From Paenibacillus sabinae T27 (GTDB lineage: Bacteria; Bacillota; Bacilli; Paenibacillales; Paenibacillaceae), in the NCBI RefSeq assembly GCF_000612505.1, contig NZ_CP004078.1, forward strand, positions 911,001 to 975,000: a DNA stretch of 64,000 nucleotides, written 5' to 3'. The notes under the pieces were generated by a model, which did no database searches, was not told the DNA's origin, and worked only from the letters and a program-made list of their open reading frames with translations. The position numbers and the translations under genes were made by a program. Shown piece by piece: positions 12,489 through 54,220 of this stretch (the first letter of the stretch is position 1; each line of letters begins with the position of its first letter).

Positions 12489-12521
12489 GTTCTTTATAGA
12501 GTACATTGAAGATGATACATT
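12489..12521 (+). promoter_or_regulatory. SinR-type operator and extended -10 promoter of the AMP-binding gene
   Basis: GTTCTTTATAGAGTAC (12489-12504) differs at two positions from the perfect palindrome found upstream of lasso B1. An extended -10, TGATACATT, ends at 12521. The block ATGATACATTAA is repeated at the same distance from the operator in the cyclase promoter. Extra half-sites GTTCTCT (12377-12383) and GTTCTC (12483-12488) lie upstream. SinR of B. subtilis recognises GTTCTYT; binding here is inferred. Confidence 0.75.
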
Positions 12522-12564
12522 AATACAAGTCCGAATAATCCATCGTACATTGGGGGAACGGATC

Positions 12565-14055
12565 ATGGAGAATACACAGGGGTCCAGCAGAGATACGGTT
12601 TCGGAGCTGCTCAGGAAGCGGGCGGCCTGCGCCCCTCGAGATATAGCCTACAGCTACCCGGAATGGGAGCAGCATTACACCTGGTCCGACATGTGGGAGA
12701 ACGCCTCCGCTTTGGCCAAAGGTTTGCTGCGCCTTGGAGTGGCAAAGGGCGACCGGATCGCGCTGCTCATGCAGGGAAGAATGGAGATGATCCTGGCGAT
12801 GTTCGGTGCGGCCTGTATCGGCGCCATCATCGTTCCGCTAAATGCATACTCCAAAAAGAATGAGCTCCGGGGTTATCTGGACGATGCCAAGCCTGAAGTC
12901 TTGATTATCGGAACGGAAGGGTATGGCCAGTGCTATCCCGCGCTTGTCCGGGAACTGATCGCCGAATCGGACCAGGAACACCCGTGGATTCCTTCCCATG
13001 TATTCGTGGCGGGCGGGGATGAGGAGACCGAACTGCCGTTTCTTCCTTTTTCGGATCTATATGCGCTGGCCGGCCAAATCCGGGAAGGGGAGTTCCTGGA
13101 AGCCTGCCAAGCGGTAAGGTCTGAAGATCCGCTAATTCTTCTTTACACCTCGGGAACGACGGGACGGCCCAAGGGCGTCCTTCGTACAACCTCATCTTTT
13201 CTGGTATCGGAAGGCGGCTTCGCGCAGCGCAGCAGAGCAGCCGAGTGGCTTACCCGTCTAAGTGACCGCATCATCCGGAAATTCTCACTCATGAACCTGC
13301 TTCCTCTGCACCATCTGGGCGGCTTTGCCGCGATATTTACCGGACTGAAAGCCTGCAATATCCGGATCGTCATGCTCAGCCATTTCCATCCTGTGAACGC
13401 TTTATCGATGCTGGAGCGGGAGAAGTGTTCGATCCTGTCAGGAACCCCGTTTATGATTCAGCGCCTGCTTGCCGTTCCGGGACGGGAAGGCTGCAGCTTG
13501 TCGTCACTCCTCGGCGTTGTGTTTACGTCGCCGGCGGAGAACAGCGCTTTGCTGAAAAATATAATCCATGACCCGCAATTGAAGCTCGTGTTCTTCATGG
13601 TCAGCTACGGATCGTCCGAAGCAGGCTCGGTTTCGAACGGCGTCTGCTTCGTGAATCGCCGAAAGAATGCGGCGTTGTCCATGCTGTTCAAACTGCTGAA
13701 CTACTCCAATCTGCTCAGCGGGCGCATCGATCCCGGCGAATTTGAAGCCGGAGACTGGATCCATGGGGGAAAGGTGGACCGCGGAGTGCAGGTCCGCATC
13801 GTGAATCCGGATACGGGGGCGGTCCTTTCCTGCCTCGAGCAAGGCGAAATTCATATCCGGAGCCACCGGGTCATGCGCTATTATACGGAGAAGCAGAATG
13901 GCTCTTCGTTCACGGAAGACGGCTGGTACAAATCCGGGGATTTGGGATTTTTGGATGACAGGGGCCAGCTGAAAATCACCGACCGAATGAAACGCATCTC
14001 GCGGGGCGGAGAAACAATATCTCCCGCTGAAATGGAACGCGATAAATGTTGTTGA
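12565..14055 (+). CDS. AMP-binding (acyl-adenylating) enzyme lacking the C-terminal domain
   Basis: 496 residues from ATG 12565, with GGGGGAACGG upstream. The N-terminal adenylation domain is complete: P-loop ILLYTSGTTGRPKGVLRT near residue 192, LPLHHLGG, YGSSEAGS and DGWYKSGDLGFLDDRGQLKI. The protein stops right after the hinge, RGGETISPAEMERDKCC, so the ~100-residue C-terminal domain with the catalytic lysine is absent. No continuation is visible in the other frames before the next promoter. It might act as an adenylation-only enzyme or be decaying. It has its own SinR-type operator and lies immediately before the lasso genes, so it belongs to the same regulon. Confidence 0.85.
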   Translation: MENTQGSSRDTVSELLRKRAACAPRDIAYSYPEWEQHYTWSDMWENASALAKGLLRLGVAKGDRIALLMQGRMEMILAMFGAACIGAIIVPLNAYSKKNELRGYLDDAKPEVLIIGTEGYGQCYPALVRELIAESDQEHPWIPSHVFVAGGDEETELPFLPFSDLYALAGQIREGEFLEACQAVRSEDPLILLYTSGTTGRPKGVLRTTSSFLVSEGGFAQRSRAAEWLTRLSDRIIRKFSLMNLLPLHHLGGFAAIFTGLKACNIRIVMLSHFHPVNALSMLEREKCSILSGTPFMIQRLLAVPGREGCSLSSLLGVVFTSPAENSALLKNIIHDPQLKLVFFMVSYGSSEAGSVSNGVCFVNRRKNAALSMLFKLLNYSNLLSGRIDPGEFEAGDWIHGGKVDRGVQVRIVNPDTGAVLSCLEQGEIHIRSHRVMRYYTEKQNGSSFTEDGWYKSGDLGFLDDRGQLKITDRMKRISRGGETISPAEMERDKCC

Positions 14056-14073
14056 GCCTGGTTTGGAGACTTT

Positions 14074-14106
14074 GTTCTTTATAAAGCACGAAAAAGATGA
14101 TACATT
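14074..14106 (+). promoter_or_regulatory. SinR-type operator and extended -10 promoter of the lasso cyclase-kinase operon
   Basis: GTTCTTTATAAAGCAC (14074-14089), one mismatch from the perfect palindrome. The extended -10 TGATACATT ends at 14106, at the same spacing as in the promoter at 12489. The -35 would lie inside the operator (TTTATA), so a bound repressor would block RNA polymerase. Confidence 0.8.
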
Positions 14107-14182
14107 AAGTACAAATCTTGGATGCAAGCAATTGTGCCGCCTGGCATTATCGGGCGTTAAGCTTCAGATCGGGAGGGTCAGG

Positions 14183-16150
14183 ATGGGTGCGATCAGTGGA
14201 TTTTACAGGTTTGGAATGGATACGGATGCCGCCCCGGACGGCGCGTCCATTTTCGGAAAATTGAAAGTCTTCGCGTTTGACCGGGCCGCGGAATGGGCCG
14301 ATTCGTCTGTGCATCTGGGCTGCGGCATTCAGTACAACACCCCTGAATCGACAAGGGAGGAGCTACCTCGCTTAAACTCAGTCGGCACCCTGGCCATTAC
14401 GGCGGATGCGATCATTGACAACCGGGCGGAGCTGCTGGAGCAGTTCAACCTTAAAGACGGGTCTTCGGACGTTATAACCGACAGCGAGCTGATTATCCGG
14501 GCTTACGAGTCCTGGGGGCACGCCTGCCCCCTGCATCTTGTCGGCGATTACGCGTTTGCGATTTGGGATATCGGCAAGGAGGAGCTGTTTGTCGCCCGCG
14601 ACGCCATGGGATCGAGGACGCTGTACTATACGTCCGAGAACGGTTATTTTGCCTTCTGCACCGTAGAGACCCCCTTACTCAGTCTGTCCGGTAAGCCGGG
14701 CGAGCTGAATGAGAAGTGGATCACCGATTTTTTATCGATTGACGGAATACAGCATGAACTGGAATGTGAAGGCACCGTTTACCGGGGGATTTACCAGCTG
14801 CCGCCCGCTCACTATGGAATCGTCAATATGAAGGGTCTGGTCACAAAAAGGTATTGGGAGCCGCTGAAGGACATCAAGCCGATCGTGTATGGCAGTGACA
14901 AAGAGTATGTCGAGGCCTTTAACCGGTGCTTCTCCGAAGCGGTGGCGTGCCGGCTGAGAAGCGCGGGCGAGACCGGGATTTTTCTGAGCGGCGGGATGGA
15001 TTCCGGTTCGATTGCCTCGGTTGCGGCCCCATTGCTCGCGGATCAGGGGAAAAAGCTGTACGGCTTCACCTCCGTCCCGGTGTCCGGGTTCAGCGGGCGG
15101 CCGTCCGGAACGGCCATCTACAACGAATCCCGTGAAGTGGAGCTGATCGGACAAGCTTATCCCAACATCGATATCACTTACGGAAGCTTCCCCGGCAAGG
15201 ATTGCCTGACCGACGCCGATGAACTGCTTCGAATCTTTGAGCAGCCTTATAAAATCTTTCAGAACATGACCTGGTATCACTCCTTCCTGAAGATGGCCGC
15301 CGGCCAAAAATGTACGGTGATGCTGAACGGCCAGACCGGAAACAGCACGATCTCATACGGCAATTTCGGGGTTCAACTAGCGACGCTGTACAGACAAGGA
15401 AGAATCGCTGCGGCGGCCAGGGAAATCTATCAGTTCAGCAAATTGGCGAAGGCGCCGGTAAGGAAGGTGCTGAAAAGCGCAATTCCCGTAGTCATGCCAT
15501 ACCGTTTGAGCGTGTGGAAGCACCGAAGGGAGCTTCGTACGTTCGATCGCTTTGAGAACATGGTGATCAAGAGGTCGCTAATCCAGAAATGGGGTGTAGT
15601 CCAAGCTCTCGACCGGATAGGAGCCAATACGCTGATCAGCCGTTTTCCGGACTATGAGGAAGACCGAAAGGCTAGAACGAGCCCTCTGCCTTTTGCGCAT
15701 ATAGGAGCGGTGGAGACCAAGTTATCACTGGCCCATGGAATTACGATCCGCGATCCATCCCGGGATAAGCGGGTCTTCGAATTCTGCATGGCCATTCCCC
15801 CCGAGCAGTTTGTACGGAACGGACAGGACCGTTATTTGCTGCGGCGGGCCATGAAAGGCATCCTTCCGGACCCGATCCGGCTCAATATCCGGACCAAGGG
15901 GCAGCAAAGCGCGGACTGGATCTACAGGCTTGCTCCGCAGTGGTCCGGGGTTCTCGCCGAAGCGGAGAGGGCGCTTGCGCAAGGCGGCCTGGACCCATAC
16001 GTGGACAAGGATAAGCTGAAGGAGAAGCTTGCCAGGGCCAGCCGGGACGCAAGCGAGAATGATGAAAATCTGATCCGGTCGATTGTCATTACCGTTATTT
16101 TCGCCAGATTTCTAAGAGCATTTAATCCGACACCCGAGGTGGTACAATGA
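14183..16150 (+). CDS. Lasso peptide macrolactam synthetase (cyclase, C protein; asparagine synthetase-like)
   Basis: 655 residues. ATG 14183 is chosen because GGGAGG precedes it and the family starts with an M-x-A-I-x-G block; here MGAISGFYRF. The N-terminal glutaminase-like domain lacks the catalytic Cys2 and so cannot use glutamine. The synthetase domain has the PPi loop FLSGGMDSGS at about residue 268. It should adenylate the Asp or Glu side chain of the precursor and close the ring on the new N-terminus. It lacks any asparagine-metabolism context. Its stop overlaps the kinase start (ATGA). The leader peptidase partner genes are about 37 kb away at 53.4-54.1 kb. Expression appears to be under the operator at 14074. 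Confidence 0.93.
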   Translation: MGAISGFYRFGMDTDAAPDGASIFGKLKVFAFDRAAEWADSSVHLGCGIQYNTPESTREELPRLNSVGTLAITADAIIDNRAELLEQFNLKDGSSDVITDSELIIRAYESWGHACPLHLVGDYAFAIWDIGKEELFVARDAMGSRTLYYTSENGYFAFCTVETPLLSLSGKPGELNEKWITDFLSIDGIQHELECEGTVYRGIYQLPPAHYGIVNMKGLVTKRYWEPLKDIKPIVYGSDKEYVEAFNRCFSEAVACRLRSAGETGIFLSGGMDSGSIASVAAPLLADQGKKLYGFTSVPVSGFSGRPSGTAIYNESREVELIGQAYPNIDITYGSFPGKDCLTDADELLRIFEQPYKIFQNMTWYHSFLKMAAGQKCTVMLNGQTGNSTISYGNFGVQLATLYRQGRIAAAAREIYQFSKLAKAPVRKVLKSAIPVVMPYRLSVWKHRRELRTFDRFENMVIKRSLIQKWGVVQALDRIGANTLISRFPDYEEDRKARTSPLPFAHIGAVETKLSLAHGITIRDPSRDKRVFEFCMAIPPEQFVRNGQDRYLLRRAMKGILPDPIRLNIRTKGQQSADWIYRLAPQWSGVLAEAERALAQGGLDPYVDKDKLKEKLARASRDASENDENLIRSIVITVIFARFLRAFNPTPEVVQ

Positions 16151-17061
16151 GCGATCCCGATTTCGAGTTTCGTTATAAGGCGTTTGGCCTGAATATCGCT
16201 TCTAATTTCCTGCTCGAAGGGCTGCTGCCCGCGGACGGGGAGCCGGAGGTCTATATCCGTGAGGGAAAGGTGCCTGTCGACATGCCCGGTCCTCCGGGTT
16301 CTTATGGGTACACTCTTGTCGGAGACGACGGTTTTGCCTTTCGCGTCAAGGATATCGGCACCTTTCTCGTAACGGGCGGCACACAGATTCTGGCGGAACG
16401 AACCGAAGGCTGCGAGCCGGGTGCCCATGTGCTGTTCATTCTGGGTACCTGCATGGGTGTGCTCCTGTTCCAGCGCGGCCTGCTTCCGGTTCACGGCAGC
16501 GCGCTGGCGCTGGAGGGCAAGCATATGATCGTGACCGGGCATTCGGGTGCGGGCAAGTCTACACTTACAGCGGCATTGATCCAGCGCGGCTGCGCTTTTC
16601 TGGCGGATGATATCGCGGCGCTCCAGGAGGACGAAAACGGTGATCCGTGGATTATGCCCGCCTTTCCCAGACAAAAGCTGTGGCGGGATACGGCCGAGCA
16701 GATTTTTGGCAGTGTGGATTCATTGGAACGAATTCCGGGTATAAGGGATAAGTATCATGTATCGATGGACAGCGGGTTTATCGAGGCCCCCCGAAGGCTT
16801 GACGCCCTCTTTGAATTGTCCACTCATCCGGGAGCGGAGGTCATTGTCTCCGAGGTGAAAGGACCGGATAAGCTGATGGCCGTATTAAGGAATATTTATC
16901 GATCCGAGTTTGTGGAGCTGATGGGTAAGCAGGGAGAACATTTTATGCGGTGCTCTGCGCTTGCCGCCCGGATCCGTGTTTTCCATATCGAACGTCCGGA
17001 GAATGGTTTTACGGTTGATGAACAAATCAAGGACATAATTCATAATTTAAGCGTTTTATAA
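16147..17061 (+). CDS. HPr-kinase-like lasso peptide kinase (PadeK-type)
   Basis: 304 residues, overlapping the cyclase stop by 4 bp, so the two are translationally coupled. Walker A is seen as VTGHSGAGKSTL (residues 129-140), followed by LADDIAAL and a C-terminal HPr kinase/phosphorylase fold. Stand-alone HPr kinase homologues in paeninodin-type clusters phosphorylate the side chain of the C-terminal Ser of the precursor. The precursor gene 200 bp downstream does end in Ser, which fits. This is not the housekeeping HprK: it has an unrelated N-terminal domain (LNIASNFLLEGL) and sits in a lasso operon. Confidence 0.9.
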   Translation: MSDPDFEFRYKAFGLNIASNFLLEGLLPADGEPEVYIREGKVPVDMPGPPGSYGYTLVGDDGFAFRVKDIGTFLVTGGTQILAERTEGCEPGAHVLFILGTCMGVLLFQRGLLPVHGSALALEGKHMIVTGHSGAGKSTLTAALIQRGCAFLADDIAALQEDENGDPWIMPAFPRQKLWRDTAEQIFGSVDSLERIPGIRDKYHVSMDSGFIEAPRRLDALFELSTHPGAEVIVSEVKGPDKLMAVLRNIYRSEFVELMGKQGEHFMRCSALAARIRVFHIERPENGFTVDEQIKDIIHNLSVL

Positions 17062-17260: not shown

Positions 17261-17395
17261 ATGATTAAAAAGGTGTGGGAAAAGCCAGAAGTGAAGGAAC
17301 TGAAGGTGAGCGGCACTGAGTATGGCACGAAAATTACCCCTAAGGTTGACGCCACCTGGACGGACGGAACGCATATTTTTTACTCTTTCAGCTAA
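17261..17395 (+). CDS. Lasso peptide precursor (A protein)
   Basis: 44 residues, found by direct translation. AGGAGGTGG lies just upstream of ATG. The leader starts MIKKVWEKPEVKELKVSGT and carries the W/Y-x-x-P-x-[VL] recognition pattern for the B1 protein (WEKPEV). The likely core begins GTKITPKVD, giving a nine-residue Gly1-Asp9 ring, then a tail ATWTDGTHIFYSFS with bulky His, Phe and Tyr plugs and a C-terminal Ser. The conserved leader Thr is then at -3 rather than the usual -2. If Thr is placed at -2 the core starts with Tyr and the ring would have ten residues. The terminal Ser is the expected target of the adjacent kinase. A strong terminator follows. Confidence 0.85.
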   Translation: MIKKVWEKPEVKELKVSGTEYGTKITPKVDATWTDGTHIFYSFS

Positions 17396-17408
17396 TTGAT
17401 TTTAAACG

Positions 17409-17447
17409 AAGGAGACCTCAAACGGTTTACGGTTTGAGGTCTCCTTT
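17409..17447. terminator. Strong bidirectional terminator after the lasso precursor
   Basis: AAGGAGACCTCAAAC pairs perfectly over 15 bp with GTTTGAGGTCTCCTT around an 8-base loop, followed by a TAAT tract. It separates the precursor from the convergent exporter gene. Confidence 0.85.
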
Positions 17448-17458: not shown

Positions 17459-17497
17459 GAAGAGCTTGTCACTTGCTTTGAGTGACAAGCTCTTTTT
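17459..17497 (+). terminator. Second hairpin-T terminator, overlapping the 3' end of the exporter gene
   Basis: AGAGCTTGTCACT and AGTGACAAGCTCT form a 13-bp stem with a TTTTT run on the plus strand only. It overlaps the last codons of the minus-strand exporter. It would act as a back-up terminator for precursor transcripts. Confidence 0.7.
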
Positions 17498-19172
17498 GTT
17501 CATATAAGACGCCGCCGGACAGCCGGTAAATATGGTCGCAGACATCGAATACGGACAGGCGGTGCGTGATGGCGATGCATGTTCTCGGGGGCTCGGCATT
17601 CCGGATATTTTGCAGGACCGCCCACTCCGTATCCATATCCAGAGCCGATGTAGCCTCGTCGAGCAGGAGGATCGGCGCCGGCCGCAGCAGGGCGCGGGCA
17701 ATGGCGATTCGCTGGGCCTGGCCTTCGGATAAGCCGGAGCCGTGCTCGCCGATAACCGTATGAATGCCGTGCGGAAGCTTCTCTATAAAGCTTGAAGCAC
17801 AGGCTGTGTCAAGGGCGGCACGGATTTCCTCATCGGTGGCCGCAGGATTGCCGATTCGCAGATTGCCTTCGATCGTGCCGGAGAAGAGTGTGTTGCCTTG
17901 CGGCACATAGGAAAAATAAGACCTTGTATCGGCCGAAAGACGGAGGGGTTCGCGGTTCTTGCCGATGATGCTGATGTTTCCGCTCTGCGGTTCGAGCAAT
18001 GCCAGCAGAAGCCGGAGGAGTGTGGTTTTGCCTTCTCCCGAGGTCCCGATCAGGGCCACAAGCTCGCCGGGCTTTATGCGAAGATTAACGTCGGTGAGAA
18101 TCGGCTTGCTTGATTCATAGCTATAGGCGACATGCTCCATGCGCAGTTCAGACAGGCTTTCCTTGTCAACAGACGAAGGAAGCTCTTTTTTGGCTTCCGG
18201 CTGCAGCTGTTGAAATACGATCAGCCGCTCCGCCGAGGTGATCATGGCGATGAGGACTGGGAACGTGCGGGCCAAGCCTTCAAGCGGTCCCTGAATCTGC
18301 CCGACAAGCTGCAAGAACGCGGTAAACATCCCGAAGCTTGCGGCCCCGGTGGATATGCGGAATGCGCCCCAGATGAAGGCAAGGAAGAAGCCGAGCCGGT
18401 AGCCGATTCCCATGGTCAGGTCGGCCGCCGCGTTAAAGCGCGTGCGTTTCAGTATCCAGAACAATCGGTTCTGCTGGGAGGCCTGCACTTTCTCCAGACT
18501 GTTTTGTTCATTCTCGAACGTTTTGACAATCAGCAGGTTCTGGATGCATTCATGCAGCAGGGAACGATAGCGGCTTTCGGCGGACTGGATCTGATGCTGC
18601 ATCCTCTTCAGCTTGCGGCCGATATACCAGCTGATGATTACGGACACGGGCCCGAGCACGAAGGCGAATAGCGCCAGCGTTTTGTCAAAGTAGAGCAATG
18701 TAAGGAAGGCGGCCGCGAACTGGACAATCAAGGCGACGATGTTCGGCAGGGTATTGATCAATCCGTCGGTAACATTGGCGGCATCGCTTGTCAGATGGGT
18801 CAGCAGATCGCCGCTGTGGTATTTGCCGGCAGCGCTCCACTCCGTCCGGTACAGCCGGTCCATGAAGCGATGCTGCAAATCATTGGCTACCGTCTCTCTC
18901 AGTCTAACGGTTCTCAGGGTCAGCAAGGAGGAAAGGCCCAGCTGGAGAATCAGAATCAAGGCAAAGGCTATGGCGTAGACTCCGCTTAGGCGCATGCTGC
19001 TCTGTACGGCATGATCGATGACCTGCTTGGAGGCGACGGCGAGGGCCGCTCCGCTCAGGGAAATGACGACATTTAAAAGGATGATCCCGGACAGCGCACC
19101 CCATTTTCCCTTCATGCACTGCGTCAGCCAGCGGTAAATATCGGTGTTAAAGAGATGCCTGAGTTTGTTCAT
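17469..19172 (-). CDS. ABC exporter of the lasso peptide (D protein), fused TM and ATPase
   Basis: 567 residues; ATG 19172 with GGGGAGA upstream. About six membrane helices (about 20-320), then the nucleotide-binding domain: Walker A IGTSGEGKTTL, signature GLSEGQAQR (an unusual E for the second G of LSGGQ), Walker B ILLLDEATSALD and the H-loop AITHRL. There is no C39 peptidase domain, as expected for lasso systems where B2 removes the leader. It is convergent to the precursor gene and separated from it by a terminator. It should export the mature peptide and give self-protection. Its own promoter shows no palindromic operator. Confidence 0.88.
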   Translation of the reverse strand: MNKLRHLFNTDIYRWLTQCMKGKWGALSGIILLNVVISLSGAALAVASKQVIDHAVQSSMRLSGVYAIAFALILILQLGLSSLLTLRTVRLRETVANDLQHRFMDRLYRTEWSAAGKYHSGDLLTHLTSDAANVTDGLINTLPNIVALIVQFAAAFLTLLYFDKTLALFAFVLGPVSVIISWYIGRKLKRMQHQIQSAESRYRSLLHECIQNLLIVKTFENEQNSLEKVQASQQNRLFWILKRTRFNAAADLTMGIGYRLGFFLAFIWGAFRISTGAASFGMFTAFLQLVGQIQGPLEGLARTFPVLIAMITSAERLIVFQQLQPEAKKELPSSVDKESLSELRMEHVAYSYESSKPILTDVNLRIKPGELVALIGTSGEGKTTLLRLLLALLEPQSGNISIIGKNREPLRLSADTRSYFSYVPQGNTLFSGTIEGNLRIGNPAATDEEIRAALDTACASSFIEKLPHGIHTVIGEHGSGLSEGQAQRIAIARALLRPAPILLLDEATSALDMDTEWAVLQNIRNAEPPRTCIAITHRLSVFDVCDHIYRLSGGVLYEQKELVTQSK

Positions 19173-19397
19173 GCGTAATCTCCCCAATCTGCCGGATTAC
19201 TGGAAATAGTTACGGGTAAGGCAGGGACTAAAGTGTGGGTTCGTTCGCTGTAAAAAACATCTGGAAGTAAATACTTGGAATATGTCTCTGGTCTTAAGGT
19301 GAAGTCTATCAAAGATCAATCAAAAATCAAGTGTGAGATTTTACGGCTTGGCGGATTGCTCTTATGTTATGTATTTACAAATTCCGGATTCCATAAT

Positions 19398-19413
19398 ATT
19401 CTTTATAAAGAAC
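19398..19413 (+). promoter_or_regulatory. SinR-type operator upstream of the small secreted protein
   Basis: ATTCTTTATAAAGAAC, one mismatch (the first base) from the perfect palindrome. It lies about 45 bp before the start codon, within the likely promoter. The -10 could be TAGACT (19430-19435). Confidence 0.75.
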
Positions 19414-19459: not shown

Positions 19460-19789
19460 ATGGTAACGTGTATGAAGAAATACGCTCGGCTAACGCTGAT
19501 TGTGCTGCTCGCCAGCGCGATTATGCTGCCGGCCTCTGCCTATGCATCCTCCGGCCCGGCAGAAGCGAAGTATTCCTCTTCTTATGCGACCTCCTTTTTA
19601 TCCTCACTGACCAACGTGATTGCTTCCTGGTTTGACAAGGAAGCAACAACGTCCCACAGCGGCAGCAACACTTCCGGTAATTGGTTAAGTTGGCTAAAAG
19701 GCAGGGACTGCGATGATGAGAAGGATTGGTGGGAGGACAATGAGCATGATTCCTACAAGCTATGGAAAAAGTATTACAGTTATAAATGA
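19460..19789 (+). CDS. Small secreted protein, unknown family, SinR-type regulation
   Basis: 109 residues; AGAGAGGA precedes ATG 19460 (ATG 19472 is also possible). A clear signal peptide (KKYARLTLIVLLASAIMLP) ends at ASAYA. The mature part of about 75 residues is rich in Ser, Trp, Lys and Asp (SWFDKE, NWLSWLKGRD, DWWEDNEHDSYKLWKKYYSYK), with one cysteine and many aromatics at the C-terminus. I do not recognise a family. A good operator sits in its promoter and it is flanked by the lasso exporter and the surface beta-helix gene. It could be a matrix component or another secreted factor of the biofilm regulon. Confidence 0.8.
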   Translation: MVTCMKKYARLTLIVLLASAIMLPASAYASSGPAEAKYSSSYATSFLSSLTNVIASWFDKEATTSHSGSNTSGNWLSWLKGRDCDDEKDWWEDNEHDSYKLWKKYYSYK

Positions 19790-19791
19790 GA

Positions 19792-19823
19792 AATGGCCCG
19801 GGATGCCCCGGGCCATTTTTTTT
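19792..19823. terminator. Bidirectional terminator
   Basis: AATGGCCCGGG (19792-19802), loop ATGC, CCCGGGCCATT (19807-19817), then a run of T. It lies between the convergent small secreted protein and SLH protein genes. Confidence 0.9.
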
Positions 19824-43003: not shown

Positions 43004-43029
43004 TCCACGCGAAGGAGCCGCCCTAAGCC

Positions 43030-44061: not shown

Positions 44062-44076
44062 CGAGGAGGCATAGCC

Positions 44077-45234: not shown

Positions 45235-45242
45235 GGCCCGTT

Positions 45243-46445: not shown

Positions 46446-47641
46446 AGAAGAGGCTGCTGTTCGTGATGAATAATCTGCACTGCGGCGGCGCGGAGAAGTC
46501 CCTGATTTCCCTGCTGCAGACCCTGGATTATTCCCGCTATGAGGTCGACCTGTTTCTGTTCAGGCATGAGGGCTTGTTCATGTCCCAGATTCCGAGTTTC
46601 GTTAATTTGCTGCAGGCGCCCCCGGATAATCTTTATTTTAATATGTCGATCAAAACGGCATTCGCCGACTGCCTCCGCAAAGGCAAGCTCAAGATCGCCC
46701 TGGCCCGGTTGTTCGCGCAGTTCATCTTCGTAACGGAGAAGAACGCAGCCCGTTCGGAGCAGCGGGCGTGGAAATACGTATCCGCTTCGATTCCCCGGAT
46801 TAACGGCAAGTACGATGCGGCCATCGGCTTTCTGGAGAAGAATCCGATCTACTGCATCATCGACAAGGTGGATGCGAAGGTCAAGATCGGCTGGATTCAT
46901 ACCAATTACGCCAGCCTGCGGATGGATGCGGCGATCGACAGGCCTTTTTTTGACCGGCTGGATTATATCGTTACCGTCTCCGACGAATGCGCCAGCGCGC
47001 TGCACAAGGCGTTTAAGGCTCAGACCGGCAAGATCAAAGTGATTCATAATATCGTATCGCCATCCATTATCCGGCGGATGTCCGAGCTGGAGATGCCGAA
47101 GCCGCCCGCTTCCGGCAAGGGCTGCATGAATATTACGACCGTGGCGAGGCTCAGTCCGGTGAAGGGAATCGACCTGGCGATCGAAGCCTGCCGGATTCTG
47201 GTGGAGCAAGGGTATCCGGTTCGCTGGAATGTTCTCGGTTACGGGACCGATTCGGAAGTCCGGGACTGTACCCGGCTGATCCGGGAGTACGGTCTGGAAG
47301 AATACTTCAAGCTGCTGGGAACGGTCGATAATCCCTATCCTTATTTGAAATCGGCGGACATTTACGTCCAGCCCTCGCGGTTCGAGGGGAAATCGATTGC
47401 CGTCGATGAAGCCAAAATCATGGGCAAACCGATCATCGTCACCAATTTCAGCACGGCCAAAGAGCAGATTGAGCATCGGCTTAACGGCTGGATCGCCGGG
47501 ATGAATCCAGAGGAGCTTGCCGAAGGCATACGCAAAGTCATCGAGGACGAACAGCTGAGGGCCCGCTGGGCAGAGCGTCTCGCCCGGGAGAAGCTGGGGA
47601 CGGAAGCCGAAGTGAATAAGCTGTACGAATTGATCTCGTGA
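46442..47641 (+). CDS. Glycosyltransferase family 4, paralogue 3 of 3
   Basis: 399 residues; ATGA overlap with the previous gene. MKKRLLFVMNNLHCGGAEKSL, IGWIHTNYASLRMD, then ARLSPVKGIDLAIEACRIL and YVQPSRFEGKSIAVDEAKIM. The near-identical organisation with the previous gene suggests duplication and divergence of acceptor or donor specificity. Confidence 0.92.
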   Translation: MKKRLLFVMNNLHCGGAEKSLISLLQTLDYSRYEVDLFLFRHEGLFMSQIPSFVNLLQAPPDNLYFNMSIKTAFADCLRKGKLKIALARLFAQFIFVTEKNAARSEQRAWKYVSASIPRINGKYDAAIGFLEKNPIYCIIDKVDAKVKIGWIHTNYASLRMDAAIDRPFFDRLDYIVTVSDECASALHKAFKAQTGKIKVIHNIVSPSIIRRMSELEMPKPPASGKGCMNITTVARLSPVKGIDLAIEACRILVEQGYPVRWNVLGYGTDSEVRDCTRLIREYGLEEYFKLLGTVDNPYPYLKSADIYVQPSRFEGKSIAVDEAKIMGKPIIVTNFSTAKEQIEHRLNGWIAGMNPEELAEGIRKVIEDEQLRARWAERLAREKLGTEAEVNKLYELIS

Positions 47642-47653
47642 AAGGGTGAGCCC

Positions 47654-48217
47654 ATGTTCGAGAGAGTAAAGAAAGCCATCGCGCTAAGGCTGGGAAGAAT
47701 CAGCACGGAGCAATTGAACATCGAGGCGTGCATCCGCCAAGGAATGAAGGTCGGACGTAATTGCCACGGATTAGGTGCCGCAACCATCGACTATGCGCAC
47801 TGCTGGCTGATTGAAATCGGCGACAATGTCACCTTCGCTCCGCAGGTGTATTTATTGGCTCACGACGCAAGCACCAAGCGGCATCTGGATTATACGAAGA
47901 TAGCGAAGATTGTCATCGAAGACGGGGCCTTTATCGGAGCGAGGGCCTTGATCATGCCGGGCGTCACTGTGGGGAAGAACGCGATTGTGGCCGCAGGCAG
48001 CATTGTTACCAAGTCCGTGCCCGAGGGGATGGTCGTCGCCGGCAATCAGGCAAGAGTGCTGTCCACAACCGAGGCGTATATTCAAAAGCATCAGGAGAAA
48101 ATGGGGCATTCGGATCTGTACGACGAGAACTGGACGATCGGCCGCCGGATTTCGCCGGACATGTGCAGGCAAATGTCGGATCAATTGATAAATGGCTCTG
48201 TCGGCTATGTGAAGTGA
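47654..48217 (+). CDS. Hexapeptide-repeat acetyltransferase (LacA/VatD-like)
   Basis: 187 residues. [20 protein letters not shown] and [20 protein letters not shown], then [20 protein letters not shown] are left-handed beta-helix turns with the catalytic His. It should acetylate a sugar in the repeat unit. It starts 13 bp after the preceding glycosyltransferase and belongs to the same operon. Confidence 0.92.
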
Positions 48218-48253
48218 GCTTAAAACTACGAAGCCCGAAAGGATTTGCCCGAG

Positions 48254-49456
48254 ATGGTCATACAGATTCTTCTCTATTTGATTGCTGCCGCTGCTATAAT
48301 CGCCGCTGCCATTGATCTTATCCCGGTCTGGAAAAGCTGGTTTGGCCGGATACATATCGGCCGCTACGATGACAGGCGAGTCTGGAGCCGCGCTCTGACC
48401 GCGAGAGGCCTTAAGTGGCTGAGCCGAATGCCCGCGGTGAAAGTCACCGATAATACCCGGCTCATCGCGCTGGATATGCTCCGGGGGAATTACACGAAGA
48501 GCGCGATCCAGCACTGGCAGGAGGCCGCCCTGCTGCTCGGCCTGGGCGAATATTTGCGGCAAAACGACGATCCCGCCGTAAGGCAGAGCATTCAGAGTTT
48601 TCTGGACTCGAAGCTGGACGGCGGCGGCCGCTGGAAGGAACAGCCGAAGCATGTCGACACCGCCATTCTGGCCTACGCGATCCTCAGCCTTGATTTTATC
48701 GGATCAGACCGGGTTGAGCCGGCCATGCACGCCGTCTGGGAGTTGATCCGGGAGCACCTGGGGACGGACGGAACCGTAAGCTACCGCCAGTCGGTAAAAG
48801 GGTACCGCTACGTGGACACGGTCGGATTCATCTGTCCTTTCCTCGTGGCCTACGGACTCAAGTACGGCCGGCCCGAGTGCGTCGATCTGGCGGTGAAGCA
48901 GATCACTGAATACGAGCAGCACGGCATGCTGGAGCCCCATCATATCCCCGTGCACGCTTACAACGTGGAGAACCATGTCCCGCTTGGGCTGTACGGCTGG
49001 GGCAGAGGGCTAGGCTGGTTCGCCATCGGGCTGATCGACGCCTGGAGCCAGCTTCCCCCGGATCACCGGCATAAGCCGGTTCTGGAGCGCAGCGTGGAGA
49101 GGTACGCCGAGGCGGTGATGCGCTTCCAGCAGCCGGACGGCAGCTGGCGATGGACGGTCACCCGGGGCGAATGCAGGCCGGACTCCTCGGCGGTGGCTAC
49201 CCTGGCCTGGTTTCTGCAGGGCGCTTCGGCCATCGGCCGCATTTCGGTGGAGTGCCGTTTATCGGCCGAAGCCGCCATGCGGTACCTGATGGGGGTTACG
49301 AGGCGCAGCGGTGCCGTCGATTTCTCGCAGGGCGACACGAAAGATATCGGCGTCTACTCAACCCTGTTCGATGTCCTTCCCTTTACCCAAGGCTATGCCA
49401 TCCGCGCGGTCAACCGGTACCTGAACACGTTCCATGAGAAGGGGGAGCCGAGATGA
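48254..49456 (+). CDS. GH88/GH105-like unsaturated glucuronyl hydrolase homologue, membrane-anchored
   Basis: About 400 residues from ATG 48254, with AAAGGA 10 bp upstream. An N-terminal hydrophobic segment (ILLYLIAAAAIIAAAIDLIP) could be an anchor. The (alpha/alpha)6 hydrolase core shows YVDTVGFICPFLVAYGLKYG, ENHVPLGLYGWGRGLGWFAI and the CRPDSSAVATLAWFL segment, as in GH88/GH105. Such enzymes remove unsaturated uronic sugars released by lyases. Its place inside an eps operon, with lyase-like beta-helix proteins nearby, suggests editing or turnover of the polymer. Confidence 0.82.
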   Translation: MVIQILLYLIAAAAIIAAAIDLIPVWKSWFGRIHIGRYDDRRVWSRALTARGLKWLSRMPAVKVTDNTRLIALDMLRGNYTKSAIQHWQEAALLLGLGEYLRQNDDPAVRQSIQSFLDSKLDGGGRWKEQPKHVDTAILAYAILSLDFIGSDRVEPAMHAVWELIREHLGTDGTVSYRQSVKGYRYVDTVGFICPFLVAYGLKYGRPECVDLAVKQITEYEQHGMLEPHHIPVHAYNVENHVPLGLYGWGRGLGWFAIGLIDAWSQLPPDHRHKPVLERSVERYAEAVMRFQQPDGSWRWTVTRGECRPDSSAVATLAWFLQGASAIGRISVECRLSAEAAMRYLMGVTRRSGAVDFSQGDTKDIGVYSTLFDVLPFTQGYAIRAVNRYLNTFHEKGEPR

Positions 49457-50334
49457 AAATAACCGTCTTCACCCCGGCCTATAACCGGGGGTACATCCTT
49501 CCCGAGCTGTATCGGTCGCTGCAGGCCCAGACCTTTGCCGATTTCGAATGGCTGGTCATCGACGACGGCTCAAGCGACCGGACGCCTGAACTGTTCAAAG
49601 CCTGGGAGCGAGAGCAGAACCCATTCTCGATCCGCTATTTCAGAGTGGAGAACGGGGGCAAGCACCGGGCGATCAACAAGGGAGTGAATCTGGCGAGAGG
49701 CGAGCTGTTCTTTATCGTCGATTCGGATGACCGCCTGACGCCGGATGCGCTGGAGAGCATCGCGAAATGGGAGGAGGGGCTGCAAGGCAACAGCCGTTTT
49801 TGCGGCGTCGCCGGAAACCGGGGAGCCGATAGCCAGCATGTGATCGGGACCACGTTCGAGGGCGAATATGTGGACGCCACGTCGCTTGAAAGAACCCGGC
49901 TTGGCATTACCGGCGACAAGGCCGAGGTTTTTTACACGAAAATCCTTAGAAATTACCGGTTCGACGAAATCGAGGGCGAGAAATTTTTGACGGAATCCAC
50001 AGTGTGGGACCGCATGGCCTACGACGGGCTGAAGCTGAGGTGGTTTAATCACACCATTTATATCTGCGACTATCTGGAGGATGGACTCACCCGCAACATG
50101 AAACGGATATTTTCGGAAAATCCAAAAGGGACGGCTCTTTATATCAAACAGCAGATTAAGCACTATAACTACGATTTAAGAGGAAGGCTCTCCAACTACA
50201 ACCTGTACTACGATTTCGTGGGAGCAAGGACCGGTCTGAGGAAGGCGGCCCGTTACCTGGAAATTCACCCTTTGACTTTACTTGCCGCCACCTGTCTGGT
50301 GAGGCTGAGGAAGCTTATGCTCCAGCGGCCCTAG
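49453..50334 (+). CDS. Glycosyltransferase family 2
   Basis: 293 residues, ATGA overlap with the hydrolase. KITVFTPAYNRGYILPELYR, IDDGSSDRTP and FFIVDSDDRLTPDALESI give a GT2 fold. It is similar to the gene at 33196. The C-terminal region (LLAATCLVRLRKLML) might touch the membrane. Co-directional with the flippase downstream. Confidence 0.92.
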   Translation: MKITVFTPAYNRGYILPELYRSLQAQTFADFEWLVIDDGSSDRTPELFKAWEREQNPFSIRYFRVENGGKHRAINKGVNLARGELFFIVDSDDRLTPDALESIAKWEEGLQGNSRFCGVAGNRGADSQHVIGTTFEGEYVDATSLERTRLGITGDKAEVFYTKILRNYRFDEIEGEKFLTESTVWDRMAYDGLKLRWFNHTIYICDYLEDGLTRNMKRIFSENPKGTALYIKQQIKHYNYDLRGRLSNYNLYYDFVGARTGLRKAARYLEIHPLTLLAATCLVRLRKLMLQRP

Positions 50335-50372
50335 CTTATTTAAGCACACTGAAAAGGATATAGGGGATAGCC

Positions 50373-51920
50373 ATGAGAGTAAAAAACTCCATCATCAACA
50401 TAACGGCAGGCATCGGCAACCAGCTGGTGATGACCCTGCTGAGCTTTGTATCCCGAACCGTCTTCATTAACAGCCTCGGCATCGAGTATCTGGGCGTGAA
50501 TGGACTGTTCACGAATATTCTCGCGATGCTGACGCTGGCGGAGGCGGGGATCGGCACAAGCATCATGTACAGTCTCTATAAGCCGATTGCGGAAAATGAT
50601 CACGTGCAGATTAACAAGCTGATGCGGCTGTACCGCAGCGCCTATCTCGTTATCGCTCTGGTGGTCACGGTGCTGGGCCTGTCCCTGCTCCCTTTTCTGG
50701 ATGAGATCGTCAAGAACACGGACATCCCGCATCTGTATCTGATCTATCTGATCTTCCTGCTTAATACGGTGACGCCTTATCTTTTCTCCTACAAAAATTC
50801 ATTCCTGAATGTGAATCAGAAGAGCTATATCGTCACTGTGGCGTACTCCGCATCCTCTATTCTTTCAACTAGTCTCAAAATCGGCATCCTGTACTTTACG
50901 GCGAATTACATCCTGTTCCTGATCATCGACAGCATTCTAACTATCGTTACGTCGGTATATCTGACCATGACCGCCAACCGGAAATATCCGTATCTCAGGC
51001 AAAAAGCAGCAGGCAAGCTGGATGCGGGAACCAAAGGCGGAATCATCAAAAATGTCAAAGCGATCGTCATCCAAAATATCGGCAGCTATCTGGTGCTCGG
51101 GACGGAAAATATTCTGATTTCCACCTTTGTCAGCGTCGCGGCCGTAGGCCTGTATTCCAACTATAAAATGCTGATCGATATCGCCAGAACCTTTATCAAC
51201 CAGGTGTTCAGCAATTTGTACCACAGTGTCGGGAATCTCGTCTCCAGCGAAAGTGAGGAGAAAATATACAGTGTCTATAAAGTGATGCTGCTGCTCAGCT
51301 TCTGGCTGTACTCTCTGCTCGCGATCCTGCTGTATCTCCTGATTGAGCCGTTTATCGGGCTCTGGATCGGCGGAAAGTTCCTGATGACCGGTGGGGTACT
51401 CCTTGTCCTGCTGCTGCTGTTCTACGAACGGGGAATGCGCAATCCGATCAGCACGGTGAAGACGACGGCCGGCATTTTTCATGAAGACCGCTTCGTTCCG
51501 CTGGCCCAGGCCGTCCTCGGACTAGGGGTTTCCATTTTTCTGGTACGGCAGATCGGCATTGAAGGAGTTTTCATCGGCTCTCTGTTCGGCGCGCTGGCCA
51601 TGCCATTCTGGACAACACCCTATCTGGTCTACAAAAAAGTGTTCCATTTGCCCGTCGCCGATTATTACCTGAAATTCGTCACTTACTCTTTGATTGGGAT
51701 AAGCGCTTTTTTTGCGGCGTACTATACAAGCGGTTTTATCCACGCGGGAAATTTCCCGCAGCTGATTGTCAAAGGAATTGTCGCGTTTGCAACCGTCAAC
51801 CTGATCTACTTCGCGGTCTTTCATCGGAGGGAAGAATTTAAGTACCTTCAGGGCATTACCAAGGTTATGTTCGGCAAAGTCACCTTAAAGTTCAAGCCCC
51901 ATTTGAAGAACGGAGGATGA
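50373..51920 (+). CDS. Polysaccharide flippase (Wzx/EpsK-like)
   Basis: 515 residues with about 12-14 hydrophobic segments. Starts RVKNSIINITAGIGNQLVMT and has SRTVFINSLGIEYLGVNGLF, a typical pattern of the polysaccharide-transporter family. It should flip lipid-linked repeat units across the membrane before polymerisation by EpsG. Four bp before galE. Confidence 0.93.
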   Translation: MRVKNSIINITAGIGNQLVMTLLSFVSRTVFINSLGIEYLGVNGLFTNILAMLTLAEAGIGTSIMYSLYKPIAENDHVQINKLMRLYRSAYLVIALVVTVLGLSLLPFLDEIVKNTDIPHLYLIYLIFLLNTVTPYLFSYKNSFLNVNQKSYIVTVAYSASSILSTSLKIGILYFTANYILFLIIDSILTIVTSVYLTMTANRKYPYLRQKAAGKLDAGTKGGIIKNVKAIVIQNIGSYLVLGTENILISTFVSVAAVGLYSNYKMLIDIARTFINQVFSNLYHSVGNLVSSESEEKIYSVYKVMLLLSFWLYSLLAILLYLLIEPFIGLWIGGKFLMTGGVLLVLLLLFYERGMRNPISTVKTTAGIFHEDRFVPLAQAVLGLGVSIFLVRQIGIEGVFIGSLFGALAMPFWTTPYLVYKKVFHLPVADYYLKFVTYSLIGISAFFAAYYTSGFIHAGNFPQLIVKGIVAFATVNLIYFAVFHRREEFKYLQGITKVMFGKVTLKFKPHLKNGG

Positions 51921-51924
51921 TGGC

Positions 51925-52959
51925 ATGGCCATACTAATTACCGGAGGCGCCGGCTATATCGGCAGCCATACTGCGGTGGAACTGCTCGAAGCGGGATACG
52001 AGATTGTTATAGTCGATAATTTTGCCAACAGCCATCCCGAGGCGATCCGTCGGATCACGGAGATCACGGGCCGCACGTTCCCTTTTTATGAGCTCGACTT
52101 ATTGGACAGTGAAGGGCTGGAGGACGTGTTCGCTCGGCACCCGATCGAAGCGGTCATTCATTTTGCAGGGCTTAAGGCGGTAGGGGAGTCGATGGAAGAT
52201 CCGCTCAGGTACTATCATACGAATCTGCTGAGTACCTTGATGCTGTGCAAGACGATGCAAAAATATGAAGTGTTCCGGATCGTATTCAGCTCCTCGGCAA
52301 CCGTATACGGCGCTCCGGAGTCGGTGCCCATTACGGAAGACTCTCCTGTAGGCGCAACTAATCCTTACGGACGGACCAAAGAAATGATCGAGCATATTCT
52401 GCGTGATGTCGCGGTGTCCAATCCCCGCTGGGGAATTTCGATTCTGCGTTACTTTAACCCGATAGGAGCGCACAAGAGCGGGCGGATCGGCGAGGACCCG
52501 AACGGCATTCCGAACAATCTGCTGCCTTATATTTCCCAGGTGGCCGTTGGCAAACTGGCCATGCTCAGCGTGTACGGGAATGATTATCCTACTGCCGACG
52601 GCACGGGCGTAAGAGACTATATTCATGTCGTGGATCTGGCGCAGGGCCATTTGAAGGCGCTAGAGCGGGTTATGGAGCGCGCTGATGTCGAGGTATACAA
52701 CTTGGGAACGGGCCTGGGCTCAAGCGTACTGGAGATGGTGAAGGCCTTCGAGAAGGTGTCGGGCAAGGCCATACCTTACCGGGTTACCGAGCGAAGAGCG
52801 GGCGATATCGCCGTCTGCTACGCGGATACGTCCAGAGCGAATGAAGAATTGCATTGGAAGGCTGTGCGCGGGTTAGAGGAGATGTGCGAAGATACGTGGC
52901 GGTGGCAGTCAGTGAATCCGGGAGGCTATACGGAGAGCGAGCTGGAAAAAGCGAATTAA
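51925..52959 (+). CDS. galE: UDP-glucose 4-epimerase
   Basis: 344 residues; starts ATG 51925 with GGAGGATG upstream. NAD site LITGGAGYIGSHTAVELL, the SSATVYGAPE and NPYGRTKEMIE (Y-x3-K) motif and the LRYFNPIGAH block. It interconverts UDP-Glc and UDP-Gal (and perhaps the N-acetyl forms) to supply precursors to the locus. It is the last gene of the locus before a bidirectional terminator and the inverted lasso/sinR operon. Confidence 0.96.
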   Translation: MAILITGGAGYIGSHTAVELLEAGYEIVIVDNFANSHPEAIRRITEITGRTFPFYELDLLDSEGLEDVFARHPIEAVIHFAGLKAVGESMEDPLRYYHTNLLSTLMLCKTMQKYEVFRIVFSSSATVYGAPESVPITEDSPVGATNPYGRTKEMIEHILRDVAVSNPRWGISILRYFNPIGAHKSGRIGEDPNGIPNNLLPYISQVAVGKLAMLSVYGNDYPTADGTGVRDYIHVVDLAQGHLKALERVMERADVEVYNLGTGLGSSVLEMVKAFEKVSGKAIPYRVTERRAGDIAVCYADTSRANEELHWKAVRGLEEMCEDTWRWQSVNPGGYTESELEKAN

Positions 52960-53004: not shown

Positions 53005-53036
53005 GTGCGGTATTAGTGTGCGGTATTGGGCGGGGG

Positions 53037-53366
53037 TTAACGGCGTTCCATCCTCCATTTGTTGTATTCCAGAAAGTCGCGGAACTCCCTTTTGCTGATG
53101 CCGGAGTGCATCGCTTCCTTAATTAACTCGTTCCACTCCAGATCAGTCTGCTCGGCGTCTTCCTTCTTCGGGTCCGAATGCAGGAATTCTTCCACGGTGA
53201 TGCCCAGAACGGAGCCGACTTTTTCCAGAAACTGAATGGAGGGGTTCTTCTGGATTCCGCGTTCGATCGAGCTCAAATAAGATTTGGCGACTCCGGCTCT
53301 TTCGGACAATTCCGTAAGGGAATAATTCTTCTTTTTGCGAAGCTGCTGTATTCGTTTACCAATCAT
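53037..53366 (-). CDS. sinR: SinR homologue, XRE-family biofilm repressor
   Basis: 109 residues; ATG 53366 with GGAGG 6 bp upstream, overlapping the B2 stop by 11 bp. The DNA-binding domain (IGKRIQQLRKKKNYSLTEL, SERAGVAKSYLSSIERG, NPSIQFLEKVGSVLGI) is very close to SinR. The C-terminal oligomerisation domain (DLEWNELIKEAMHSGISKRE, FRDFLEYNKWR) is present; it is the part that binds SinI. No sinI or slrR is visible. It is the third gene of the lasso B1-B2 operon, whose promoter carries the perfect operator, so it probably represses itself. Confidence 0.93.
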   Translation of the reverse strand: MIGKRIQQLRKKKNYSLTELSERAGVAKSYLSSIERGIQKNPSIQFLEKVGSVLGITVEEFLHSDPKKEDAEQTDLEWNELIKEAMHSGISKREFRDFLEYNKWRMERR

Positions 53367-53841
53367 GGCTGACCTCCGTAATTGATCTGGTACCCGCAGA
53401 TTTGGCGAATTTGTCGACTACCACAAATCGATCCATGACTTCCGCCCCGGAAATATAGTGGGAACCGCTGCGAAGCCAGGCGTGAGCGATCAGTTTTCCG
53501 TCCTCGTCTTTGGCCGTTCCTAAATATAGGGTGCTCCCGATGCCCCTTCTTTCCAGCATTTTCATGCCGGCGATGGCCCTTACCAGGCATTTGCTGTCCC
53601 ATGGAGTGTATTGGCTGACGGTCTGAATGGAGTGGGCCACCCGCCACATGGAGGGAGTAAGCGCCGAATCGCTCTCCCGGCCCGTCTCTTGCCCTCTTTC
53701 GCCAAGTGACGGCGCCACTTTAGAGAACTTGCGAAAGAGGAGGGTACGGGCCCAGCCGAGCAGTAAAAAGGCTTCCAAATAAGACAAGAGGGCAGTCTTG
53801 TCCAAGCCAAGCAGCAACCGGAGCTTTCTGGCCAGCTTCAT
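53356..53841 (-). CDS. Lasso peptide leader peptidase (B2, transglutaminase-like)
   Basis: 161 residues; ATGA overlap with B1. A transglutaminase-like cysteine protease core: Cys85 in PWDSKCLVRAIAG, His120 in LIAHAWLRSG and a C-terminal Asp (VVVDKF). It removes the precursor leader using the bound RRE protein B1. The short N-terminal region (about 60 residues) is helical. No precursor or cyclase gene is nearby; the matching ones are at 14-17 kb. Translation is coupled to B1 upstream and to sinR downstream. Confidence 0.92.
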   Translation of the reverse strand: MKLARKLRLLLGLDKTALLSYLEAFLLLGWARTLLFRKFSKVAPSLGERGQETGRESDSALTPSMWRVAHSIQTVSQYTPWDSKCLVRAIAGMKMLERRGIGSTLYLGTAKDEDGKLIAHAWLRSGSHYISGAEVMDRFVVVDKFAKSAGTRSITEVSHDW

Positions 53842-54140
53842 CCGGCATCCGCCACGCGAATCAAATCTTCTGTCAACAGATGCTGTAAAAAAGGAATGAC
53901 GTCCTGTTCGCAAATGTCGGCGTCAATTTCATAGATTTGCTGAAGTGCTATGATAATCTCCTGAACAGACCGCGGAGTGCTGATAATGCTCCAGATATCG
54001 CCGCCAACCTGTCCGAGGTTATAATACTTTCCCTGTTGTACGCTGAGCATCACTTTTTCGCCATCCATATCGCTGACAATATTGCCCTCGCATTGAACAA
54101 GGACGGTATCTATCGATAAAATCTTGGTTTGTTTGATCAT
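53838..54140 (-). CDS. Lasso peptide leader-binding protein (B1, PqqD-like RRE)
   Basis: 100 residues. PqqD-type RRE: VMLSVQQGKYYNLGQVGGDIW (strands and turn with Y/LN.V) then LQQIYEIDADICEQDVIPFL helices. It binds the lasso leader (pattern WxxPxV in the precursor at 17261) and delivers it to B2. First gene of the B1-B2-sinR operon, downstream of the perfect operator at 54205. Confidence 0.9.
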   Translation of the reverse strand: MIKQTKILSIDTVLVQCEGNIVSDMDGEKVMLSVQQGKYYNLGQVGGDIWSIISTPRSVQEIIIALQQIYEIDADICEQDVIPFLQHLLTEDLIRVADAG

Positions 54141-54204
54141 GGATCAACCACTCCTTAACCGGGGATTTGGAAGGCAAACATAAAGAAGTATCATGCTCGG
54201 TTAT

Positions 54205-54220
54205 GTTCTTTATAAAGAAC
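54205..54220 (-). promoter_or_regulatory. Perfect SinR-type palindrome in the B1-B2-sinR promoter
   Basis: GTTCTTTATAAAGAAC, fully self-complementary. A possible extended -10, TGATAC, lies on the minus strand 26 nt after the operator start (ATGATAC block as in the other operator promoters). It precedes B1 by about 65 bp. It would allow SinR autoregulation. Confidence 0.85.

Follow-up and report, generated by a model that had tools for sequence, protein, structure and literature searches.

SinR-type palindromes at a divided lasso peptide pathway and the exopolysaccharide locus between its parts in Paenibacillus sabinae T27

Gene content of the two lasso groups

In this work we describe, in Paenibacillus sabinae T27, a lasso peptide pathway whose genes lie in two places around an exopolysaccharide (eps) locus, together with a palindrome of SinR-operator layout that recurs ahead of both gene groups and of the eps genes. 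The window, that is the whole stretch of 64,000 nucleotides analysed, covers positions 911001-975000 of a genome of 5.27 Mb that consists of a single contig. It holds, between 12.5 and 19.2 kb, genes for an AMP-binding ligase, a lasso cyclase, a kinase and a precursor, with an exporter gene on the opposite strand, while B1, B2 and a SinR-like repressor are encoded at 53.0-54.1 kb, all on the minus strand. Two beta-helix protein genes and an EpsG-type eps locus, from 19.8 to 52.96 kb, separate the two groups, the distance from exporter to B1-B2 being about 34 kb. The first-pass annotation had proposed such a split, with neither group complete alone, and gene calls and family matches confirm it: a genome-wide profile search (E <=0.001) returned a single B1 and a single B2 match, and therefore one pathway in two places. 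A second complete lasso cluster, as the real home of B1 and B2, is ruled out by these single matches in a single-contig genome. The other cyclase-family match, with 207 bits at 4.06 Mb, probably represents an asparagine synthetase: 9 of 14 control genomes, including B. subtilis and E. coli, also give matches in this search.

The cyclase (C protein; 14183..16150, plus strand; PF00733 and PF13537) has NF033535 as its best family, yet its 351.5 bits lie below the 525-bit cut-off; a tree places it among cyclases mostly having B1/B2 neighbours. The HPrK-type lasso peptide kinase (K protein; 16147..17061, plus) carries the Walker A motif GHSGAGKST and also scores under the cut-offs, with 33.1 bits for PF07475 (33.3 needed) and 34.4 for TIGR04352 (200 needed). 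The precursor gene (17261..17395, plus) was recognized by its translation, a 44-aa peptide with a WEKP leader motif, the predicted core GTKITPKVDATWTDGTHIFYSFS and a C-terminal Ser, and is followed by the convergent gene of an MsbA-type ABC exporter (D protein; 17469..19187, minus; PF00005 and PF00664). In the distal group, the leader-binding RRE protein B1 (53838..54140, minus) matches NF033536 with 127 bits (cut-off 80) and the leader peptidase B2 (53356..53841, minus; start codon chosen by us) matches NF033537 with 97 bits (cut-off 33) and PF13471. The last gene of this B1-B2-sinR unit encodes the SinR-type repressor (53037..53366, minus; PF01381, HTH_3, and PF08671, SinI domain) and overlaps B2 by 11 bases.

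The intervening interval opens with the gene of a surface protein containing SLH, fibronectin III and beta-helix regions (19822..23940, minus; family search) and continues with that of a secreted beta-helix protein (24174..26336, plus; PF13229), the first gene of the eps side. The eps locus itself (26528..52959, plus) encodes Wzz, a tyrosine kinase, a PglF-type dehydratase, glycosyltransferases, EpsG, a pyruvyl transferase, GH88, a flippase and GalE, the last two named by reading the translation, without family search.

As a rule, lasso precursors have a penultimate leader Thr (-2) and an Asp or Glu at core position 7-9. With the core starting at Gly1, the ring Asp stands at 9 and the leader Thr at -3, in the window and in the six related loci where precursor orthologues were found; setting Thr at -2 instead moves Asp to 10 and gives a 10-residue ring, again in all of them. 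Either frame would be unusual, and the ring is ambiguous, Gly1-Asp9 being the probable closure. The window precursor and its orthologues end in Ser. The window B1 carries YYNLGQ, with Gly (residue 43) at the position, judged by eye, where RREs of the linear polyphosphorylated peptide (LPP) type have Asn (LppB N33); the WxxP-leader and B1-Gly criteria are those of Popov et al. 2026 (PMC13381572). Identity as an LPP cluster was considered and is ruled out, a cyclase being present and the leader being of the WxxP, not the YxxP, type.

SinR-type sites and SinR proteins

The 16-bp palindrome GTTCTTTATAAAGAAC occurs at eight sites in the window when up to 3 mismatches are allowed, where 0.05 would be expected, and none of 100 shuffles reached eight. 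The window site GTTCTTT-AT-AAAGAAC is made of two inverted GTTCTYT half-sites with 2 bp spacing; B. subtilis SinR binds GTTCTCTAAAGAGAAC, likewise inverted GTTCTYT half-sites with 2 bp between, with a Kd of 300 nM (PMC3163267). Genome-wide, 6 of the 9 sites at <=2 mismatches fall inside the window and the sole perfect one is at B1; at <=3 mismatches the count is 32, versus 20 for the reversed pattern, so that a lone 3-mismatch site means little. In eight surveyed genomes, 7-9 sites per genome were found at <=2 mismatches, versus 1-5 for the reversed pattern. Window enrichment and reversed-pattern controls together rule out a chance palindrome.

The perfect site (54205..54220; pattern scan) lies ahead of B1-B2-sinR, and a 1-mismatch site (14074..14089) begins 109 bp before the start of the cyclase, ahead of its operon. 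Two sites precede the eps operon (26419..26485): the one at 26470 has 1 mismatch and is identical at L067:3532, while the one at 26419 has 3 and is without counterpart in P. rhizophilus. Another 3-mismatch, operator-like site (39697..39712), identical at L067:16118 and L069:593, stands ahead of a nucleotidyltransferase gene inside eps; this site and the one at 26419 are weak on their own, because the 3-mismatch count is not much higher than the reversed control. A 2-mismatch site precedes the AMP-ligase gene (12489..12504; counterpart in P. rhizophilus, G013, at L066:8116) and another the second beta-helix gene (24137..24152; identical at L067:1202). Finally, a 1-mismatch site, equal in sequence at L066:16507 and L096:18073, lies in the interval between the exporter gene and a divergent small secreted protein gene (19398..19413); since it is nearer the divergent gene (62 bp) than the exporter start (211 bp), whether it also acts on the exporter is uncertain. 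The first-pass annotation had one and the same 16-bp operator at both lasso groups and at the eps promoter: sites are indeed present at all three, as copies differing by 0-3 mismatches rather than identical ones. Outside the window, an isolated site, GTTCTGTATAACGAAC, was noted at G000:C1:4868490-4868505 (L081:5491), the same sequence or its complement recurring in G013, G024, G029 and G034.

The spread of the palindrome was followed in two sets of cyclase loci, scoring a site when it had <=2 mismatches and lay no more than 300 bp ahead of the cyclase. The first set comprises 32 loci, from a survey of 60 genomes plus the window, after one weak cyclase match (L049, 25%) was dropped. The second comprises 80 named loci in 78 genomes (L116 and L173 share one, as do L148 and L151), the best 80 of at least 497 relatives by likeness to the window cyclase and thus not a random sample. 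The sets overlap (P. rhizophilus, P. typhae, P. albidus, P. jilunlii) and are not independent. A site was found in 23 of the 32 loci, the other nine having >=5 mismatches, and the reversed pattern in one; of random 300-bp windows, 49 out of 3200 held a site, though these were drawn from the loci of the 32-set, so that true sites are included. In the larger set the site was found in 34 of 80 loci, which is no estimate of frequency because of the way the loci were chosen; no locus had exactly 3 mismatches, 46 had >=4, and the reversed pattern was absent from all 80 up to 3 mismatches. A few loci counted as site-free are borderline: L104, with only 18 bases before the cyclase, was not testable, L119 (2 mismatches, about 316 bp upstream) and L120 (581 bp) have a site just beyond the limit, L131 and L155 have sites further into the locus, and L125 has 4 mismatches at the cyclase. 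Site-bearing loci belong to Paenibacillus, Cytobacillus, Metabacillus, Peribacillus, Jeotgalibacillus, Fredinandcohnia, Alkalihalobacillus and Bacillus. At seven B1-B2 loci where no cyclase match was found (L030-L032, L034, L035, L038, L046), a site at <=2 mismatches was likewise not seen.

Polysaccharide genes are frequent neighbours of these sites. Eps markers occur in the flanks (<=10 kb) of 22 of the 34 site-bearing loci, versus 8 of the 46 others, and where a Wzz gene is present with 100 or more bases ahead of it, Wzz has its own site in 10 of 14 site-bearing loci, versus 1 of 4 others. Three genomes of other families (G041, G052, G057) have a compact cluster beside eps, with sites ahead of both.

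In the cyclase tree, the window clade (P. rhizophilus, P. sinensis, P. spiritus, P. soyae) sits among Clostridium cyclases having neither site nor SinR, and far from the paeninodin clade; both lineages carry the site, P. soyae being a site-free member of the window clade. Given these positions, the most likely history is that each of the two lineages gained the site on its own.

The window SinR aligns with that of B. subtilis over residues 1-107 (3.4e-37), with the stretch AKSYLSSIER unchanged. At the threshold used for SinR homologues (E <=1e-10), the genome holds two copies, one of them in the window; the second (G000:C1:341197-341831, L174:6198-6832) is 53% identical and convergent with a gene for a 50-aa SinI-domain protein (PF08671), so that a gene for a putative SinI-like antagonist is present beside it. 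Homologues of SinR were found in 25 of 37 same-genus genomes, and B2 in 29 of the 37.

In the plain counts, site and repressor go together. In the 80-locus set a SinR is encoded in the genomes of all 34 site-bearing loci, versus 15 of 46 site-free ones (Fisher 3.7e-11), and in the 32-locus set in 23 of 23 versus 3 of 9 (9.3e-5), both figures being inflated by relatedness. The three site-free cases with SinR in the smaller set are G017 and the second clusters of G009 and G025.

Gene content, a palindrome of SinR layout, its conservation and the place of sinR in the B1-B2 operon can be read directly from the DNA. That these belong to a paeninodin-like lasso pathway, physically interleaved with an EpsG-type eps locus within one SinR-type regulon, is in our judgement probable. 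Which repressor would read the palindrome is a separate matter. It may be read mainly by the SinR encoded at 341 kb, or by a SinR/SlrR-like heterodimer, the SinR of the lasso operon acting as a local modulator or antagonist: a SinR gene lies within the flanks of only 11 of the 34 site-bearing loci, though all 34 genomes encode one, and it is the 341-kb gene that adjoins the one for the SinI-domain protein. We hold this to be possible but on the unlikely side, as a SinR gene adjoins B1-B2 behind a site with <=1 mismatch in the window and in seven relatives (P. rhizophilus, G029, G024, P. spiritus, G034, P. sinensis and P. harenae).

Split and compact relatives

The first-pass annotation had suggested a search for synteny in related Paenibacillus genomes, and such a comparison finds the lasso genes both split and together. 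In P. rhizophilus, the nearest named relative found, gene order is as in the window, the cyclase is 85% identical, and counterparts exist for seven of the eight window sites. The split recurs in P. spiritus on one 64.7-kb contig (covered by three pieces, two of which are separated by a gap of about 1.7 kb), where the cyclase is only 55% identical to that of the window and sites lie at the cyclase, precursor, ligase, small secreted protein, Wzz and B1. Two further genomes, G029 and G024, agree with the window order over the extent of their short contigs. A compact form was found in G034 and P. sinensis, with cyclase, kinase and precursor on one strand and B1, B2, SinR and exporter on the other; sites lie ahead of cyclase and B1 in both, and ahead of the precursor in G034. 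In such compact clusters the exporter gene lies behind sinR and shares its strand, whereas in the window eps lies between the two.

The operator is thus conserved among relatives, yet is no mark of the split: it also precedes compact clusters, and the site counts in the 32 and 80 loci given above include many of these. A role specific to the split or to eps is ruled out, since the site precedes cyclases of compact clusters in many species. A careful cyclase tree does not separate the branching of P. spiritus (split), of G034 and P. sinensis (compact) and of the window clade, and because of this insertion of eps and its loss both stand as the direction of the rearrangement.

These compact clusters lend some weight to a reading in which split and shared control are incidental, eps having moved beside, or been lost from, a stand-alone antibiotic cluster, with SinR providing stationary-phase timing only. 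Besides operator-bearing clusters without intervening eps, it would account for the 12 of 34 site-bearing loci that lack an eps marker in their flanks and for the site-free clusters that adjoin polysaccharide genes; paeninodin and LPP clusters are, moreover, patchy and mobile (PMC13381572). We regard it as rather unlikely, considering that the window and P. spiritus share the interleaving despite the divergence of their cyclases, that eps neighbours are enriched at site-bearing loci, and that the operator is present on two cyclase lineages.

Other arrangements were met among the more distant loci. In P. harenae (L116), eps is followed by cyclase, kinase and exporter, then by SinR, B2 and B1 on the opposite strand, with sites at cyclase and B1; a B1-B2-SinR unit as in the window is thus found on a different cyclase lineage. 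In L122 and L161, two B1-type genes, an NTP transferase and an exporter lie upstream of the lasso cluster, adjoining Wzz and kinase genes; these loci, which have sites at the cyclase, look like the LPP-plus-lasso arrangement of PMC13381572.

Proposed regulation and relation to known systems

If the divided pathway and eps form one SinR-type regulon, active SinR would sit on the palindromes and block cyclase-kinase-precursor, B1-B2-sinR, the secreted beta-helix and small proteins, and eps. Once SinR was neutralised, possibly through the SinI-like gene that adjoins the second sinR, all these units would open together. B1 would then present the WxxP leader of the precursor to B2, the cyclase would close the ring, probably Gly1-Asp9, and the kinase would modify the C-terminal Ser to give a C-terminally phosphorylated lasso peptide, which the exporter would release during the synthesis of matrix polysaccharide. 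With sinR in last place in B1-B2-sinR, opening of this unit would also make repressor, and negative feedback is likely.

Several observations weigh against a common regulon of this kind. A promoter scan gave no promoter-like match at the cyclase operator and nothing decisive at the precursor; at B1 a match on the right strand ends 9 bases before the operator, where 0.9 would be expected by chance. The window precursor lacks an operator of its own (best 6 mismatches), unlike those of G034 and P. spiritus. Two SinR copies are present in the genome, either of which might be the cognate one, and 15 of the 46 site-free loci belong to SinR-containing genomes. The cyclase tree leaves only 8 independent site-SinR pairs, with 2.9 on average in the same direction and none in the opposite one (p about 0.25), the remaining pairs showing no difference. 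In G034 a search found no EpsG match, and its compact cluster keeps the operators, while G037 has eps, SinR and sites, yet no B2 match; either partner can therefore stand alone. Lastly, in G039, G045, G047, G049 and G054, genomes where no SinR match was found, lasso clusters adjoin Wzz and kinase genes with no site, so that the neighbourhood of lasso and polysaccharide genes does not need the operator.

The missing precursor operator would also fit a pathway that is decaying in this strain and makes no peptide, as would the state of the AMP-binding acyl ligase gene (12565..14055, plus; PF00501). This operator-bearing gene is C-terminally shorter than in P. rhizophilus (L066), where a ligase open reading frame (ORF) of 591 aa is followed by another ORF ahead of the cyclase; in the window the latter is missing. 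To our knowledge, an AMP ligase is not among the known lasso genes, and cyclase, kinase, precursor, exporter, B1 and B2 are all intact frames with conserved orthologues, which makes decay very improbable. Concerning the ligase, we note that in P. spiritus (L096) a site-preceded ligase and a PF01757 acyltransferase lie between the exporter and the small secreted protein.

Popov et al. 2026 (PMC13381572) have described capsular polysaccharide loci that harbour paeninodin-like and LPP clusters. The suggestion, made at first reading, that no lasso system with such an arrangement was known therefore went too far, and the gene arrangement of the window is a variant of these known clusters. According to the same report, in P. 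alginolyticus the lasso B1, an LPP RRE and an eps gene rise synchronously in stationary phase, no mass attributable to a lasso or LPP product was seen in cells or medium, the roles of paeninodin-type lasso peptides are unknown and a biofilm role is left as speculation. The terms SinR, SlrR, operator, Spo0A and AbrB have no occurrence in the searched text of PMC13381572. No link between lasso peptides and SinR was found among the papers listed by literature searches, judged mostly on titles and the beginnings of abstracts and with subscription journals largely outside them, and lasso peptides are not mentioned in the accessible part of a study of P. polymyxa eps and biofilm (PMC7911366). Within this literature, a SinR-type operator conserved at lasso clusters appears to be new.

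With paeninodin-type clusters, including pba of P. alginolyticus, the window shares the set of C, K, A, B1, B2 and D genes, the WxxP leader, the Gly of B1, the C-terminal Ser, an NTP_transf_5 neighbour and the polysaccharide-locus neighbourhood. It differs in its cyclase, which is on a separate branch nearer to Clostridium cyclases, in its core, which is not of the AGPG type of the paeninodin-type precursors compared, in having B1-B2 far from the exporter and sinR in the operon, and in its SinR-type operators, which do not figure in the family as described in PMC13381572. LPP clusters, as described in the same source, resemble the window in RRE, HPrK-type kinase, NTP transferase, MsbA-type exporter and polysaccharide neighbourhood; the window departs from them in possessing a cyclase and B2 and in having a leader of the WxxP type. 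With the SinR regulon of B. subtilis (epsA-O, tapA-sipW-tasA) the window has in common SinR, operators of inverted GTTCTYT half-sites with 2-bp spacing, an EpsG-type eps target and a SinI-like gene; in contrast to that regulon, the set includes a lasso pathway, and one sinR lies inside the regulated B1-B2 operon.

More tentatively, and with less confidence than for the regulon in the window, we suggest that SinR-operator-bearing paeninodin-family peptides may be programmed products of the matrix-building state in Paenibacillus and other Bacillales, acting inside the biofilm and not primarily as secreted antibiotics. The first-pass annotation had already proposed a product of biofilm formation in place of a stand-alone antibiotic cluster, an interpretation that is partly supported here. 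Two unrelated cyclase lineages would have come independently under a SinR operator, and in some species the repressor gene would have become part of the leader-peptidase operon, coupling maturation and repression in a mutual feedback. An operator ahead of many clusters says when to look for the peptide, namely in derepressed, matrix-producing cells, and offers a simple genetic handle, the removal of sinR. Its conservation opens the biofilm hypothesis to direct test in many species, common laboratory isolates among them, and with it the question of what paeninodin-type peptides are for.

Some further features of the window deserve mention. Between the convergent precursor and exporter genes lies a 16-bp hairpin (17408..17447; fold -27.8 kcal/mol), a possible bidirectional terminator, although it is absent from the output of the terminator scan. 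The small secreted protein (19460..19789, plus; <=109 aa) gave no Pfam or NCBIfam match and is possibly a matrix protein; its gene is conserved, again downstream of a site with one mismatch, in P. rhizophilus, G024 and P. spiritus. Two NTP_transf_5 nucleotidyltransferases (PF14907) are encoded, and homologues of both occur in lasso clusters of relatives. For the one within eps (39805..41124, plus), relatives directly follow B2 in other lasso clusters, with 57% identity in L062. The other (56863..58047, plus), beyond HtpG, is a possible tailoring enzyme: relatives about 60-72% identical adjoin paeninodin-type clusters, and no operator precedes it in the window (best 5 mismatches). An Rfam scan of the window gave nothing beyond the 16S rRNA gene that begins at its edge (63125-64000). 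Finally, the eps locus encodes a 325-aa protein (38575-39552) with no Pfam match, which is 71% identical, over the matched part, to its counterpart in P. rhizophilus.

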